Virus record (IMG/VR): IMGVR_UViG_3300049203_000265
Span: 1-58,867 of that record
Origin: a virus
Reading direction: 5' to 3' (one strand)
Length of the DNA: 58,867 bases
Made by a program: the position numbers and the translations under genes. Positions 37,617 to 58,643 of the stretch are shown one piece after another (the stretch's first letter is position 1; each line of letters starts with the position of its first letter). Below the pieces are notes generated by a model. It was not told the DNA's origin and ran no database searches. It saw nothing but the letters and a program-made list of their open reading frames with translations.

Positions 37617-39242
37617 GTGAAGAGTTTGCTGCTGACCCTCGGCCACAACAGCTCGGCCGTCCTGATGGACGACAACCGTGTGGCTTGGGGCTACGAGACC
37701 GAGCGGATTTCCGGGGCGAAGTCCGACAGCAATTTCCCGGCCCGAGTGCTCGAGCGCCGCCTGTGGTCGAGCGTGGACATGGTCTACGTCACTCACTGGG
37801 CGCCGACCGGCCAGCTGATCGACATGTCGCACAAACACTGGCGGCCGGAGTTCTTCGACGGCATACCCGTGCGGTCGCTCTCTCCGTCGTGCTCGCACCA
37901 CGACACCCACATCGCGGGCGCGATGTGTTACGCCGGCCCGCGCTTCCCCTACGGGCGGAAGACCATCGGCGTGGTGGTCGACGGGTTCGGCATCCTCGGC
38001 GAACACTTCAGCGTGTACCAGCTCGAGGCTCACCAGAAGCCGAGGCTCCTGCGCCGCGTGCACGGCTACGGCACCAGCCTCGGGCTGTGGTATCAGTACG
38101 CCACCGCCTTCATGGGTATGAAGATGCACGAGGACGAGTACAAGCTGCTCGGCTACGAGGCGCATATCCGGGAGGAGGACGCAGAAGACCTCGACCGCCT
38201 GTCCAAGAGCGCCTCGGAGAAGTGGCTCGAGTGGATGGGGCAATCCGTCTACGGGTCCGAGTTCGACCCAGTCTACAACCTCGCCGCGCTCGAGGAGGTC
38301 AAGAAGAAGGTGTTCGGCCAGCTTCTGGCCGTGTGCAAGTACTTCGGCCTCGCCGACCCGTCAGCCGACCTCTCGCGCCGCATCCTGTCGTACTACGTGC
38401 AGAGGGTGCTCGAGCGCGTGGTGGTCGGCCTGATCGACCTCAGCGCGGGCGACTACACCAACATGATCTGCTCGGGCGGTGTGTTCTACAACGTCAAGCT
38501 CAACAAGATCCTTCTCGACCAGGTGGCCGAGCGCGGCGGCCAGATGTGCGTGTACCCTCTGGCGGGCGACCAGGGCTGCGCTCTAGGCCTCTACGCCATC
38601 GACCACCCGGCACTGGAGTTTCCGAAGGACCTGAACTGGGGCGTGCGCGAGCTCTACGACGTCGGCGAGGTCAAGGGCCTCATCGTGTTCGAGAACGAGC
38701 TCGAGGCCGTCGACTACTCGATCCACCGCCTCCGTACCAAGGGCGTGGTGAACCTCGTGCGGGGCGCGATGGAATTCGGGCCTCGCGCCATGTGCAACAC
38801 GTCGACCATCGCCTTGCCCAACCGCAAGGTGGTGCGCAAGATCAACACGGCCAACGAGCGGAACACCGTCATGCCGATGGCTCCGGTCATGAGCGAGACG
38901 CAGTACACGTCGCTCCTCGAGAAGACCCCGCACGTGTGGCGCTCGCACCGCCACATGATAATGGCGATGGAGATGAAGGAGCACCCGTTGGACAACATGC
39001 TGGGCTGCACGCACGAGTACCATCGCCCGACGAAGCACCACACGTGCCGCCCGCAGGTGGTGGGCCCGAGCGACGGAGTCATGACCAAGATGCTGTCGGC
39101 CTTCGGGCACCCGCTCATCAACACCTCTTTCAACTATCACGGCATGCCCATCGCGTTCGACATGCCGTCGATCATACAAAACCACAACATGCAGCACCAG
39201 CGCGACAACGACTTTCACACAGTGGTGATCCAAAATGTCTAA
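37617..39242 (+). CDS. Carbamoyltransferase (NodU/TobZ family), candidate hydroxymethylcytosine modifier
   Basis: The 541-residue protein shows the whole family plan. The N-terminal carbamoyl-adenylate-using domain has LGHNSSAVL, CSHHDTHIAGAM, VVVDGFGILGEHFSVYQ, GGVFYNVKLN and GDQGCALGLYAI. The C-terminal YrdC-like part has RGAMEFGPRAMCNTSTIALP, RNTVMPMAPVM and HPLINTSFNYHG. The family transfers carbamoyl groups from carbamoyl phosphate with ATP to hydroxyl groups. A phage member has been linked to 5-carbamoyloxymethylcytosine in DNA. Downstream dCTPase-like, kinase and dCMP-hydroxymethylase-like genes support that role here; this remains inference. Confidence 0.85.
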   Translation: MKSLLLTLGHNSSAVLMDDNRVAWGYETERISGAKSDSNFPARVLERRLWSSVDMVYVTHWAPTGQLIDMSHKHWRPEFFDGIPVRSLSPSCSHHDTHIAGAMCYAGPRFPYGRKTIGVVVDGFGILGEHFSVYQLEAHQKPRLLRRVHGYGTSLGLWYQYATAFMGMKMHEDEYKLLGYEAHIREEDAEDLDRLSKSASEKWLEWMGQSVYGSEFDPVYNLAALEEVKKKVFGQLLAVCKYFGLADPSADLSRRILSYYVQRVLERVVVGLIDLSAGDYTNMICSGGVFYNVKLNKILLDQVAERGGQMCVYPLAGDQGCALGLYAIDHPALEFPKDLNWGVRELYDVGEVKGLIVFENELEAVDYSIHRLRTKGVVNLVRGAMEFGPRAMCNTSTIALPNRKVVRKINTANERNTVMPMAPVMSETQYTSLLEKTPHVWRSHRHMIMAMEMKEHPLDNMLGCTHEYHRPTKHHTCRPQVVGPSDGVMTKMLSAFGHPLINTSFNYHGMPIAFDMPSIIQNHNMQHQRDNDFHTVVIQNV

Positions 39243-39696
39243 CATCTCAGCAGAGATCGTCGAGCCAGTCCATTCGACGGACCCCGTCTTCGACGCGATC
39301 TACGACTTCAACGAGATGGTCGTCGGCGTGGCCGTCGACCTGAAGATCAACGGCCTGACCGACGACCAGCGCAAGTGGATGTCGAAGGCTCTCCGCGAGG
39401 AAGCGAAGGAGTTCGACGATGCCGAGGCCGTCATGAGTCATAGCTTCGAAGATTTCGTGGTGGCTCAGGTCGACGCGCTCCTCGACTCCATCTACTTCGC
39501 GGTGGGCGGGCTCAAAAAGATGGGTCTCACCCGTGCCCAGGCCTACGAGTGCATGATGGCAGTGCACCGTGCCAACATGAACAAGAAGCGCGGCGGCAAG
39601 GCCAGCCGTGGCAACTTCGCGGAGGACGCCGTCCGGACGGAGGAATTCGTGCCGCCCGAAGCCGCCATCAAGCGCATCATCTTCGGAGGCATCTGA
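39235..39696 (+). CDS. MazG/HisE-like all-alpha NTP pyrophosphatase, dCTPase candidate
   Basis: The 153-residue helical protein has REEAKEFDDAEA (Glu56, Glu59) and VDALLDSIYFAVGGLKKMG (Asp80, Asp84), the acidic metal-binding pattern of MazG/HisE/dCTPase enzymes. NKKRGG and a C-terminal PPEAAI segment follow. It would hydrolyse a (d)NTP to the monophosphate. Beside a dCMP hydroxymethylase candidate, a dCTPase role as in T4 would remove plain dCTP and supply dCMP. Substrate is not determinable from sequence. Confidence 0.7.
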   Translation: MSNISAEIVEPVHSTDPVFDAIYDFNEMVVGVAVDLKINGLTDDQRKWMSKALREEAKEFDDAEAVMSHSFEDFVVAQVDALLDSIYFAVGGLKKMGLTRAQAYECMMAVHRANMNKKRGGKASRGNFAEDAVRTEEFVPPEAAIKRIIFGGI

Positions 39697-40263
39697 ATGG
39701 CGATCGTACTCGAGGGGCCCGACAACGCCGGCAAGACGACGCTCGCTCAGGCCCTGCAATCCGCCATCCCGTGCCACTACGTGCACGCGGGTGGGCCGCC
39801 CGCGAGTTCCCAGGTCGAGCTCGATTGCCTCGCCAAGCAGCAGGCCCTCTTTCTCGAGCCGGACGCGGTGCTGGACCGCGTCACGTGCGTGAGTCAGTCG
39901 GTGTACAACCCGTCGGAGAGCATGGATCCCATCCGGCGCCACGCCCGCGCCCACATGGTGCACCAGGGCGTGCTGCTCGTGTTCTGCCGGCCGAGCACGG
40001 ACCGACTCATGCGGACCAACGACTTCACCTGGCGGGTGGACGAGCCCGACGAGCTGAAGCAGAAAATCGTGCACAACCAACAGACGTTCGTTATGCGGTA
40101 CGACCACGTCATGGCCGTCACGCCGCACGTGCACTACAACTTCGAAGAGCCGGGCATCGCCACACAGATCGCCGAGATGCTGGTGGACGTGCTGAAGGGG
40201 GACCTCGGAGCCTACAACGCACTGCACCGCATGATGCACATGCGAGGGGGAATCGTCGGATGA
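39697..40263 (+). CDS. P-loop (deoxy)nucleoside monophosphate kinase
   Basis: The 188-residue protein has a thymidylate-kinase-type P-loop, EGPDNAGKTT (residues 6-15), a short body with DRVTCVSQSVYN and a lid-like region with RTNDFTWRVDEPDELKQK. GGAGG lies upstream of the ATG. In this operon it may phosphorylate the modified dCMP made by the next enzyme, the job done by the T4 dNMP kinase for hydroxymethyl-dCMP. Plain dTMP kinase is the alternative. Confidence 0.75.
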   Translation: MAIVLEGPDNAGKTTLAQALQSAIPCHYVHAGGPPASSQVELDCLAKQQALFLEPDAVLDRVTCVSQSVYNPSESMDPIRRHARAHMVHQGVLLVFCRPSTDRLMRTNDFTWRVDEPDELKQKIVHNQQTFVMRYDHVMAVTPHVHYNFEEPGIATQIAEMLVDVLKGDLGAYNALHRMMHMRGGIVG

Positions 40264-41081
40264 AGGTCCTCAATTCCGGCCACAACGCCGTCTCGATGCT
40301 GGCCATGTACCGCATGGCCCTGTCCGGCGTCGAGATCCACGCCCGAGGCACGACGAGCCGCAACGTGCGCAACCTGTGCATCGTGCTGAACCCGCAGGAC
40401 TCGTGCCTCACCTCGTTCGACGCCCGCAAGCTGAACCTCGACTACTGCAAGAAAGAGTGGCTGTGGTATCTGCGGGCGGACAAGTACGACGACTCGATCG
40501 AGAAGCACGCCAGCATGTGGGCCAAGATCAAGCAGCCGGACGGGTCCTACTACAGCAACTACGGCCAGTACCTCTTCGCCCCCGGGCCGGTCGAGAGCGG
40601 CGCCTCGCAGTTCGAGTACTGCGTGCACACGCTGCGGAAGGACCCTGACTCGCGGCGGGCCTCCATTGTTCTGCTCCAGCGGAACCACCTCTTTCCCGAC
40701 AACGCCGACGTGGTGTGCACGTACGCCATCCACTTCTGCATCGAGCTCGGGCGCCTGCACATGACGGTCCACATGCGGAGCAACGACGTGGTGTTCGGCT
40801 TCACCAACGACTCGTTCTGCTTCTGGCAGCTGTACCGCTTCATGTTCGTACTGCTGAAGCTGAAGTACCCCGACCTCAAGTTCGGCACGTACACCCACAC
40901 GGCCAACTCCATGCACGTGTACGACCGGCACTACGAGATGCTGACCAAGATCGACTCGGCCGGCCTGGCTGGCCACACCGACGTCGACGTGCCGATGCCG
41001 ACGGCCAACGAGGTCGCCATCCTGATCAGGTCGAGGGGCGAGGACGGCGAAGGAGCGTACAGTGACTGGCTCAAGGCTTGA
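40260..41081 (+). CDS. Thymidylate synthase-fold enzyme, candidate dCMP hydroxymethylase
   Basis: The 273-residue protein keeps the thymidylate synthase core: Arg132-Arg133 of DSRRASIV, catalytic Cys153 in VVCTYAIHF, RSNDVVFG at 173-180, and the nucleotide-binding HVY in MHVYDRHYEM. Where thymidylate synthase has the Asn that selects dUMP (LPFN), an ungapped alignment gives FTND, placing Asp184 there. Asp at that site is typical of dCMP-specific hydroxymethylases. A one-residue gap would change the reading. The enzyme would turn dCMP into 5-hydroxymethyl-dCMP with methylene-tetrahydrofolate. Confidence 0.8.
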   Translation: MKVLNSGHNAVSMLAMYRMALSGVEIHARGTTSRNVRNLCIVLNPQDSCLTSFDARKLNLDYCKKEWLWYLRADKYDDSIEKHASMWAKIKQPDGSYYSNYGQYLFAPGPVESGASQFEYCVHTLRKDPDSRRASIVLLQRNHLFPDNADVVCTYAIHFCIELGRLHMTVHMRSNDVVFGFTNDSFCFWQLYRFMFVLLKLKYPDLKFGTYTHTANSMHVYDRHYEMLTKIDSAGLAGHTDVDVPMPTANEVAILIRSRGEDGEGAYSDWLKA

Positions 41082-45280: not shown

Positions 45281-45784
45281 ATGACCGAAGCAACCCAAAC
45301 CGCCGACGCCGCGGGCGAGGCCCGCAAGCGCGCGGCCGCATCGAACTTCCTCGCCATCGTGCGCGGCCGCCTGCCGCTGATCTTCGTGCACGCCATCCGC
45401 TTCGACGAGGTGGTTTCGAAGATGGGCAACAAGGACGCCGCCGCCAAGTTCGGCACGTCCGTCGGCAAGGTGTTCGACATCCGCAAGGGCCGCAACTTCT
45501 CGTACGTCGACCAGGGCTTCAAGCCGAACGCCGACGACGTGGCCCAGGCCAAGTCGTGGGCCGAGCAGGTCGGCGCGCAGAACGCCAAGGGGCTGACTGC
45601 CAGCGGCGACAAGGACCTGATGCTGAAGATCGTGGGCGAGTACGAGGCGCGCGGCCTCGGGACCGGTGCACAGCGCCCGGCCCGCACGCCCGGCGAGAAA
45701 CAGCCCGCAGCGGCGGCCGCGGGTGCCGGTGGTGAACAGACGCAGGCGGCGGGTGCCAACACCGCCGACGCGCTCCTGAGCTGA
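45281..45784 (+). CDS. Conserved phage HTH-like protein, paralogue 3
   Basis: The 167-residue protein contains VRGRLPLIFVHAIRFDEVVSKMGNKDAAAKFGTSVGKVFDIRKGRNFSYV. Its centre aligns with the helix-turn-helix-like module of the 668-982 and 53423-53860 proteins (AA-x3-G-x-S-x-G-x-V and an Arg three residues on). The C-terminus is a low-complexity Ala/Gly tail. It is the last gene before the structured RNA. A DNA- or RNA-binding role is likely but untested. Confidence 0.65.
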   Translation: MTEATQTADAAGEARKRAAASNFLAIVRGRLPLIFVHAIRFDEVVSKMGNKDAAAKFGTSVGKVFDIRKGRNFSYVDQGFKPNADDVAQAKSWAEQVGAQNAKGLTASGDKDLMLKIVGEYEARGLGTGAQRPARTPGEKQPAAAAAGAGGEQTQAAGANTADALLS

Positions 45785-46549
45785 ACACGCAGGCAGCAAG
45801 AGTAGCCTCCCACTCTTTGTTCGGGGCCGGTCCGTACGGACACCATCCGGGCGCTAAACGAAGGCCGTTGACGAGACGTAAACTCGCCTAGACCTGGGCA
45901 TGTCGACAAAACTGCCCACTTATCTGTTTCGGCCGGAGAGGGGGAGGCGATGGCCCCCGTAAAGGTAAATCGAGGTGTTGCTGCGGCTTGCTGCATTTGT
46001 CGCACCGAACAGGCGCTCGGGCCGAAACAGATAAGTTGCAAGGCCAGTTAAGGTCGCGTTCGTTCCATGTCGCGGCAGTGACGCAGGCCCCAATCGGCGG
46101 CAGATCGTGATGAGAGTTGTCCCGGGCGCATCTCCAATGTGCCGCCAGCCCGGACGGACGTTTGTAGTTGGCTTCAGGCATCAAGTCTCGACAAAGCGGC
46201 AATTCGGCGGAATTAATGCCGTGAAAACGAGAGCCCCCGCCGGGGAAGCATAGGGCGATTTGAGGACGAGCCGGGTTTACTGGTCAACTCTTAAAGTTCC
46301 GAAGAGGGCGGCAGCCCCTGGCGCCTGAGGTTAACTACAAGGGTCCGGAGCGACGGCCGACCGCGGGATGTGAAGCCCTCGCGGAGAGCCGCCGGGCTCT
46401 TGACGAGTTCTGTGGGCCGCTCTAGCTCAGAAAGCTCAGCCGAATTCTAGACAAGGCCGAGTGCGGTAGAGCCCCGGGCTAATAACCCGGTACGTGCGGA
46501 GAGATGGGCCTCCTCCGGAGCGGCCCACAGAGCTTATCGGAGGTCTGTC
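45785..46549 (+). ncRNA. Large structured non-coding RNA candidate with a tRNA-like 3' domain
   Basis: No convincing gene lies in these 765 bases, yet they are dense in complementary segments. The best is a perfect 17-bp pair ACTTATCTGTTTCGGCC (45918-45934) with its complement at 46020-46036. Others are hairpins at 45895-45918, 45940-45958, 46197-46221, 46288-46306, 46361-46384 (5 bp plus 2) and 46385-46400 (6 bp, GCCG loop), and GGCGGCA/TGCCGCC at 46096/46140. It ends in the tRNA-like fold. Size, phage location and an attached tRNA-like part recall GOLLD and ROOL RNAs, but identity is not established. Confidence 0.65.
46409..46531 (+). ncRNA. tRNA-like domain with long closing stem
   Basis: A 15-bp outer stem (TCTGTGGGCCGCTCT with GGAGCGGCCCACAGA, last pair G-U) encloses a D-arm core GCTC/GAGC (46425-28, 46469-72) separated from an anticodon-type hairpin by one base, as in tRNA. 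The hairpin is CCGGG-CTAATAA-CCCGG (46474-46490), giving an AAU triplet at the anticodon place. The D-loop has an extra hairpin (about 46435-46461). The T-arm lacks TTCGA. It is tRNA-like, not a canonical tRNA. Confidence 0.6.
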
Positions 46550-46981
46550 ATGATCAGTCGCAGAGGCCTGCTGGCCGGGTTCGCCGCGAGCGCGGCTGGC
46601 GTTCTGGTGCCGCAAGCGCCGGCCATCGTGCGCAGCACATCGCTCATGCCGGTGCGGCCGCTCGAGGACTTTCTCGTGTACTCCGTCAGCTACCGACATG
46701 TTGGAGTGTTCGGAGACACGTTCGTCGCCCGGGCCTGGTGGCATGCGGCCACCAAACGGTGGTACCAGCCCGTCGCCGAACACGAGTACGACCGTGACAG
46801 ACCCAGCGGGATGTGGATGCGCCGGAACGGCACGTACTTCGCCAGTGACGTCGACGGCTCCGGCGATGGCTGGGAACAGCGCCGCGTCGAAGTGCCGGTG
46901 CTTCGCACCATGGAGCTCTGTGAAGTGAAATTCGGGTCCAGAGGATCCATCGAGATGGTGACAAAGGAGATAGATTTGTGA
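46550..46981 (+). CDS. Tat-signal-like exported protein
   Basis: GGAGG precedes the ATG. The N-terminus MISRRGLLAGFAASAAGV has the twin arginines at 4-5 and a hydrophobic core, then APAIVRS as a likely cleavage region. The mature part is beta-rich with several aromatic motifs (YSVSYRHVGVFGDTFVARAWWHAATKRWYQP). Tat-like phage proteins of this type occur in proteobacterial phages, but their function is unknown. It overlaps the exonuclease gene by 4 nt. Confidence 0.6.
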   Translation: MISRRGLLAGFAASAAGVLVPQAPAIVRSTSLMPVRPLEDFLVYSVSYRHVGVFGDTFVARAWWHAATKRWYQPVAEHEYDRDRPSGMWMRRNGTYFASDVDGSGDGWEQRRVEVPVLRTMELCEVKFGSRGSIEMVTKEIDL

Positions 46982-47505
46982 GAGATCTGATGCTGGACCT
47001 GGAGACGATGGGCGTCCGCCCGACGTCGGCCATCGTGTCGATCGGGGCCGTCATGTTCGACGAGAACGGCCTCGGCTCGGAGTTTTACACCCCGGTCAGT
47101 CTGCAGTCGTGCGTGCGCTTCGGGCTCACCACCGACGCGGACACCGTGAAGTGGTGGGAGACGCAGCCGGAGCTCGTGCGCAACGCGTGGGCGGACGAGC
47201 ACGCTCCCCTCATGGACGTCGCGCTCAAGGCCTTCAACGACTGGTGCGTCAAGAACGGCGTGCAGCGGGTCTGGGGCAACGGCGCCGACTTCGACCCGCC
47301 GATCATCGTCAACGCCTTTCGCGCTCTCGACGCCGAGGCGCCGTGGCCGTGGCACGGGCACCGCTGCTACCGCACGGTGAGGAACATGTTCGACGACCCG
47401 CAGACGCCGCGGACAGGCACGCTCCACCACGCCCTGGACGATGCCAAGTACCAGGCACAGAACCTGCTGGCCATCATGTCGATGAACCGGCTGCACCTCG
47501 GCTAA
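46978..47505 (+). CDS. DnaQ-like 3'-5' exonuclease
   Basis: The 175-residue protein has DLMLDLETMG (Asp-x-Glu) at its start, WGNGADFDPPIIVNAF in the middle and HHALDDAKYQAQNLL at the end. These are the three DEDDh exonuclease motifs. AAGGAG precedes the GTG. It may degrade host DNA or RNA or trim ends. Confidence 0.85.
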   Translation: MRDLMLDLETMGVRPTSAIVSIGAVMFDENGLGSEFYTPVSLQSCVRFGLTTDADTVKWWETQPELVRNAWADEHAPLMDVALKAFNDWCVKNGVQRVWGNGADFDPPIIVNAFRALDAEAPWPWHGHRCYRTVRNMFDDPQTPRTGTLHHALDDAKYQAQNLLAIMSMNRLHLG

Positions 47506-57989: not shown

Positions 57990-58173
57990 CAGGAGGTGCC
58001 CGCCCACCGGCGGCATGATCGGGCGGCGCCGCGAGCGCGGGGCATGGATCCATAGGCCGGCTCCCGGAAACGGGGATCAGCCCGGGCCGTAACAGGTGAG
58101 CATCAGCCGCCCGGCGGGGGCAGGGGCCGCGATCAGGGGGACGGGCCGTACCGTAAGTTATCGGCACAAAAAA

Positions 58174-58643
58174 CTTATGGTAAACGTTTACGGTAAAACG
58201 AAAAGTTCAATCCGGATAATAACTTAAGTGCGAAACTGCGCCGTGGCGTGCTCTGAGCGGCTCCCGGAGTAGGCAGGGGCGTGTGCAGGGGACCGTGCGA
58301 GTTGTGCATCGCACATCGCACGCGGTGGACGGAAACGTTACCGTAACGTACCGTAACTGCGTGACGGACGGGCTCGGTTTCAGCCAGTTTCTACCCGCGG
58401 CGTCGGCCGAAGCCCGTACACTTAAGTTATTAATTTTGTTGAACTTTAGTATTTACCATATATTTACCATAAATATAATAAAAGTATATAAATGAATATA
58501 TTCCATGATTAGGTCCTATTCAATTGTAATATACAATTTATACTTAAAACCATATATATTCTATTATATAATTAAGTTTTGAAAAGTTATGGTAAACGTA
58601 TGGTAAACCCTAAATATCGTTATAAATTAATAACTTAAGTGCG
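58174..58643. other. Putative replication origin (iterons and AT-rich core)
   Basis: ATGGTAAA-type iterons occur at 58177, 58589 and 58600, with TTTACCAT at 58452 and 58463. A variant CGGTAAA lies at 58191. TTAATAACTTAAGTG occurs at 58627-58641 and inverted at 58419-58433, with a third, slightly shorter copy at 58218-58232. The segment between the inverted pair is strongly AT-rich in an otherwise GC-rich genome. Iterons plus an AT core are the usual signature of an origin. Confidence 0.6.
58419..58641. repeat. 15-bp inverted repeats flanking the AT-rich core
   Basis: CACTTAAGTTATTAA (58419-58433) and TTAATAACTTAAGTG (58627-58641) are perfect inverted copies, 193 bases apart, bounding the AT core. 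Confidence 0.8.

Follow-up and report, generated by a model that had tools for sequence, protein, structure and literature searches.

The 58,867-base window analysed here, IMG/VR virus record IMGVR_UViG_3300049203_000265, comes from a virus of bacteria, and carries at positions 45785–46549 a 765-base gap (1.3% of the window) between the stop of a conserved gene at 45784 and the start of the next open reading frame (ORF) at 46550. This gap is a candidate gene for a structured non-coding RNA with a tRNA-like 3′ end, and is compared below with the corresponding gap of a 35-kb viral contig, L118. The locus is laid out as follows.

45281–45784, plus strand: conserved upstream gene of unassigned function, 65% identical in L118
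45785–46549, plus strand: non-coding structured region and candidate RNA gene, lying between genes, with no coding signal in six frames and a fold z of −4.04
46539–46544, plus strand: Shine-Dalgarno-like CGGAGG of ORF 46550, read from the sequence, just 3′ of the tRNA-like helix
46550–46981, plus strand: downstream ORF of 143 amino acids with a twin-arginine-like N-terminus and no family, from the ORF call and family search
46978–47505, plus strand: Rv2179c-like 3′–5′ exoribonuclease (PF16473, E = 1e-46), 44.5% identical in L118

The exoribonuclease gene is the next conserved gene in both phages. The twin-arginine-like start of ORF 46550–46981 reads MISRRGLLAGFAASAAG, with the ORF matching no known family and adjoining the RNA region in the window phage only. 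Scored with codon statistics trained on 18 genes from the window itself, the gap gives −0.60 to −0.73 bits per codon across the six frames, with most neighbouring genes at +0.58 to +0.83 and the weakest neighbour, ORF 46550, at +0.2. The longest internal ORF (45888–46202, minus strand, 104 amino acids) scores −0.39 or less in every frame. As all six frames are negative, the gap is neither a hidden nor a decayed gene, and a sequence-only reading that had described it as gene-free is upheld, with the check for an overlooked protein finding a coding trace in none of the six frames.

What the gap holds instead of a gene is long helices. Three of the four longest helices (inverted repeats) of the entire window, ranked with at most four G-U pairs and a span of up to about 260 nt, fall within its 765 bases, consistent with the richness in complementary segments noted in the sequence-only reading, as is the perfect 17-bp pair with 85 bases between its arms reported there, found here as helix 1.

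45918–45934, plus strand: helix 1, 5′ arm, 17 bp and perfect, mean pair probability 0.98
46020–46036, plus strand: helix 1, 3′ arm, pairing with 45918–45934 across 85 nt; 17/17 pairs in L118, 11 of them changed on both sides
46161–46179, plus strand: helix 2, 5′ arm, 19 bp with 4 G-U, mean pair probability 1.00
46323–46341, plus strand: helix 2, 3′ arm, pairing with 46161–46179
46361–46402, plus strand: two adjacent local hairpins picked out in the earlier reading, of which the whole-region fold includes the first in full and the second partially

The third long helix, 46405–46423/46517–46535, has 19 bp with 3 G-U pairs and closes the 3′ part of the region. Watson-Crick helices of at least 11 bp number 2 in the region against 0.26 expected, and only 3 other helices of at least 17 bp with a loop of more than 45 nt occur in ~600 kb of related viral contigs under the same filter, the L118 helix described below being excluded. 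Mean pair probabilities are 0.98 for helix 1, 1.00 for helix 2, and 1.00, 0.94, 0.99, and 0.82 for the acceptor, D, anticodon, and T stems of the 3′ domain respectively, all unaltered when 300 nt of flank is added on each side.

Within the third helix, the segment 46416–46524 folds of its own accord into a cloverleaf laid out like a tRNA. It comprises 7 acceptor pairs, UA, a D-stem, one base, a 5-pair anticodon stem, a six-base variable loop, and a 5-pair T-stem lying flush against the acceptor strand, the arrangement found in tRNA, with every cloverleaf stem perfectly paired.

46406–46534, plus strand: tRNA-like domain closed by an acceptor helix of 17 bp, 46406–46422/46518–46534, from the fold, descriptor, and pair probabilities
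46425–46472, plus strand: D-arm with a GCUC/GAGC stem; its loop has tRNA-like ends (AG at the start, GGUA at the close) and an insert of 34 nt at 46431–46464
46474–46490, plus strand: anticodon-like arm CCGGG-CUAAUAA-CCCGG, which would read AAU, from sequence and pair probabilities
46497–46517, plus strand: T-arm position, CGGAG/CUCCG stem with an 11-nt loop lacking UUCRANY
46201–46211, plus strand: putative site onto which the D-loop insert could dock, able to pair with 46436–46446 (10/11)

A cloverleaf descriptor, composed after the sequence had been viewed and with loop lengths chosen to admit 46416–46524, matches only this segment on both strands of the window and none of 200 dinucleotide shuffles, and the tRNA-like end claimed in the earlier reading is thus borne out as geometry. 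The likeness to tRNA (RF00005) extends to U8 and A9, the GCUC/GAGC stem with its AG...GGUA loop, a 7-nt anticodon loop with U33, and the T-stem abutting the acceptor. The domain differs from tRNA in its 34-nt D-loop insert, in a T-loop (AGAUGGGCCUC) without the UUCRANY (TPsiC) consensus, and in an acceptor helix extended by ten pairs beyond the normal seven to a total of 17 bp, such that the CCA position is base-paired and the acceptor end is not free. An AAU anticodon is unusual in bacteria. Searches with Rfam RF00005 and ARAGORN give no match at the tRNA-like end (for ARAGORN also with the insert deleted), and by the same two methods the window holds no tRNA gene. Taken together, the D-loop insert, the T-loop, the AAU, and the paired CCA position indicate that the tRNA-like end is no functional tRNA.

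L118 was found via alignment of the conserved protein just upstream of the region, and shares gene order with the window, with proteins mostly 42–69% identical (27–65% around the locus). Despite this synteny their GC contents lie 24 points apart, at 64.0% in the window and 39.6% in L118. In the same gap L118 carries CCTGGGCATG-N6-AACTGCC, where the window has N7, followed a few bases later by a helix of 23 bp with one G-U pair and a 91-nt loop, quite unlike window helix 1 in sequence and ending directly at a tRNA-Pro gene. With the register set by a common TTAT, 17/17 pairs of helix 1 persist in L118, 11 of them with both bases changed, so that the compensated helix of the first domain, observed in one relative, amounts to covariation as read from two sequences. 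The positional agreement is close, with the same gap, the same motif, and a helix start within a few bases, and as a control none of 51 chance matches to the motif in cellular genomes is then followed by a helix of more than 10 bp. That L118 retains the opening fold at the equivalent position, next to genuine tRNA genes, suggests a large RNA of a new sort in these viruses rather than chance.

The 5′ part of the first domain contains further shared or paired segments.

45803–45811, plus strand: sequence motif UAGCCUCCC (UAGUCUCCC in L118), from visual comparison with L118 5484–5723; suggestive only
45805–45816, plus strand: possible pseudoknot strand 1, able to form 11/12 pairs with 45937–45948 within helix 1, with 6 bp possible in L118
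45893–45916, plus strand: conserved motif CCTGGGCATG-N7-AACTGCC with a small GGCA/UGCC hairpin, from local alignment with L118 (5′ domain, p = 0.015)
45937–45948, plus strand: possible pseudoknot strand 2, the partner of 45805–45816

Of the loci in that comparison, the window and L118 alone carried the CCTGGGCATG...AACTGCC motif. Beyond the helix, the order in L118 is tRNA-Pro, an ORF, a second non-coding segment whose long helix includes G-U pairs, a defective tRNA, a GC-rich hairpin, tRNA-Thr, and the exoribonuclease gene, with three further tRNAs upstream of the gap. The defective tRNA (L118 6533–6611) has a 6-bp anticodon stem, an 8-nt loop (GACUAGUA), and two T-stem mismatches, together with a normal T-loop and an encoded CCA. 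The L118 segment C and this odd tRNA may be the counterpart of the second module and tRNA-like end of the window, an attractive but unproven layout. A match of the second half of the region to L118 segments B or C was dropped as its similarity was not significant, and the second domain and tRNA-like end have no proven homologue.

The tRNA genes of L118 also bring in the main rival, in which the region is the remnant of a phage tRNA operon, leader and spacer RNA with processing hairpins that flanked tRNA genes; in this high-GC phage the tRNAs would have been lost or reduced to a tRNA-like relic, leaving an RNA with no job of its own. The tRNA-Pro immediately after the helix, the defective tRNA, the tRNA-Thr, and the three tRNAs upstream, set against none in the window, are what such a history would leave. 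The cloverleaf stems of the window are, however, all perfect, unlike those of a decaying gene, which speaks for upkeep; there is elaborate structure in the second module and the lengthened acceptor helix, and the retention of helix 1 across a 24-point GC difference goes beyond the needs of a spacer. We regard the remnant as a serious though rather improbable explanation, between which and a functional RNA one relative cannot decide.

The same comparison bears on whether the region is a long 5′ untranslated region controlling translation of ORF 46550, as the CGGAGG a few nucleotides 3′ of the tRNA-like helix might suggest. In L118, however, the first module precedes tRNA-Pro and an unrelated-looking ORF and is therefore not tied to ORF 46550, and 765 nt is very long for a leader; we consider this role very improbable. 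Slightly less probable still is that the inverted repeats act as DNA, in replication, packaging, or recombination, or that the region was once a protein gene and has decayed. Long inverted repeats are known in DNA elements, the AT-rich repeats at 58160–58640 being an example, but the tRNA-specific geometry and letters lie on one strand, tRNAs adjoin in L118, and a coding trace is found in no frame. The repeats at 58160–58640 form an AT-rich island, possibly a replication origin, in a genome of 64% GC; TTATGGTAAACGT-like units recur in it, and inverted repeats of 14–18 bp lie around TTAATAACTTAAGTG.

Relatives beyond L118 are scarce. The window phage stands far from named phages, with a terminase 47% identical to that of Xanthomonas phage Xp15 and 46% to that of Acinetobacter phage Effie. 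In Xp15, Effie, HHU4, and L119–L129 the gap that follows the homologue of the upstream gene shows no counterpart; in the more distant L119–L129 the upstream gene is mostly closed by an ordinary terminator hairpin. The collection of homologues by nucleotide search, proposed in the sequence-only reading, returned no relative in named phages or plasmids, with the 765-nt query finding no homologue in 30 records chosen by terminase plus named phages, nor in four fragments with 72% terminase identity. Scans anchored on proteins, namely the upstream gene product by itself, the ligase, and the exonuclease, found no relative, and a thymidylate synthase-anchored scan found relatives from which the locus is absent. 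Matches to the motif in cellular genome contigs were at chance level. A search by pattern for tRNAs whose D-loop carries an insert gave six matches and no relatives, five being ordinary or neighbouring tRNAs and the sixth having no tRNA. Two side observations concern other genes of these contigs. A complete tRNA-Ile(GAT) is apparently nested in the anticodon loop of another tRNA in viral contig sequence (L108 7338–7500, L111 3973–4135). At window positions 37617–41078 a carbamoyltransferase (PF02543/PF16861) adjoins a thymidylate-synthase-like gene, a pair also present in L113–L115 and L118 that might form a DNA base modification pathway.

The cmscan check against Rfam suggested by the earlier reading, run up to E = 10, yields no family that fits the region. 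GOLLD (RF02032, membership above 150 bits) is unmatched at E up to 10 in both the window and the L118 record, by cmscan and by direct model search. ROOL (RF03087, membership above 99.1 bits) is likewise unmatched at this limit, its direct model search having had no positive control. No covariance model of the other Rfam families, including group I and II introns and tmRNA, matches in the region; a match of mir-942 to the helix 1 hairpin (E = 0.21, minus strand) was set aside as chance. The proposal of a structured non-coding RNA with a tRNA-like end is supported by its non-coding state, helices, cloverleaf, and L118 helix, whilst membership of GOLLD or ROOL, which the earlier reading had left open, is not supported, neither model giving a match. 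A literature search, with subscription papers outside its coverage, found no description of this RNA.

Several observations weigh against a structured phage RNA. Both helices being perfect, any register would give 17/17 pairs, and the argument from L118 hence rests on position and synteny; sequence similarity is weak in the 5′ domain (p = 0.015) and not significant for 46037–46405 and the tRNA-like end. Two sequences permit no statistical covariation test (R-scape), and retention of structure is shown for domain 1 in a single relative, so that a new class has one relative supporting its first domain only. The whole-region fold has a z of −4.04, with −3.41 on the minus strand, whilst 4 of 57 other 765-nt segments of the window fold at least as well (one overlapping the region) and the energies of 150-nt windows of the region are no outliers. 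Neither a dedicated promoter nor an intrinsic terminator was found on the plus strand at its edges. Fold energy was rejected as sole evidence, being unexceptional for this genome; it is the long helices and cloverleaf that set the region apart.

On this evidence we consider it reasonably probable that 45785–46549 encodes a structured phage RNA of up to about 760 nt, the most likely form of this candidate being a processed, stable RNA that derives from a tRNA locus and has a GOLLD/ROOL-like setting but belongs to another family. A single 765-nt molecule, its transcription, its processing, and every function are what we infer. The RNA would be read from the plus strand along with the surrounding genes, in a polycistronic transcript, and then excised and retained as a stable molecule. 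Its architecture would consist of two domains, each closed by a long helix, and at the 3′ end a tRNA-shaped domain that stays folded but is unable to act as tRNA, with the long perfect helices serving as RNase III-type processing sites and lending stability. The tRNA-like end may protect or dock the 3′ end, possible partners being the ribosome, host enzymes that handle tRNA, or, via the D-loop insert, a different part of the same RNA. More tentatively, and with some doubt on our part, the RNA may belong to a class of large ornate phage RNAs that is new and has no relation to GOLLD or ROOL, with a built-in tRNA-like 3′ domain whose enlarged D-loop docks on its own core, acting as a scaffold or tRNA mimic during infection.

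Large RNAs of this broad kind have precedents in phages. GOLLD and ROOL, two large RNAs of phages whose function is unknown, lie near tRNAs and form RNA cages; GOLLD, found in phages and prophages, sometimes carries tRNAs in its linkers, and the ornate ROOL often adjoins tRNA islands (PMC12286853). Phage ICP1 produces an abundant ~800-nt non-coding transcript, seen by RNA-seq, whose role is unknown (PMC7567579). The region resembles GOLLD in its large size and tRNA-gene setting, and ROOL as a large ornate phage RNA in a tRNA setting, but matches neither RF02032 nor RF03087, and differs from GOLLD in having a non-functional tRNA-like domain that closes its 3′ end. By description the candidate resembles the ICP1 RNA in being large, non-coding, and an orphan, and in coming from a gap without ORFs in a phage that has no tRNA genes, although the ICP1 transcript has been observed and the window RNA is predicted. 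As setting and size are like those of GOLLD, ROOL, and ICP1 and neither Rfam model matched, the candidate is kept within the broad kind of large phage RNAs and outside GOLLD and ROOL.

The stable RNAs C and D of the T4 tRNA cluster are non-tRNA products of a phage tRNA operon of about 120–140 nt, by description alike in tRNA-operon origin but far shorter. The structures of GOLLD and ROOL are known, whilst their function and the reason for their proximity to tRNA genes remain open. If the present interpretation is true, a separate family with a tRNA-shaped domain that is no tRNA, and with a first domain that in a relative likewise adjoins genuine tRNAs, would tie the link with tRNA to the architecture of the RNA itself, in a form that could be tested in vitro.
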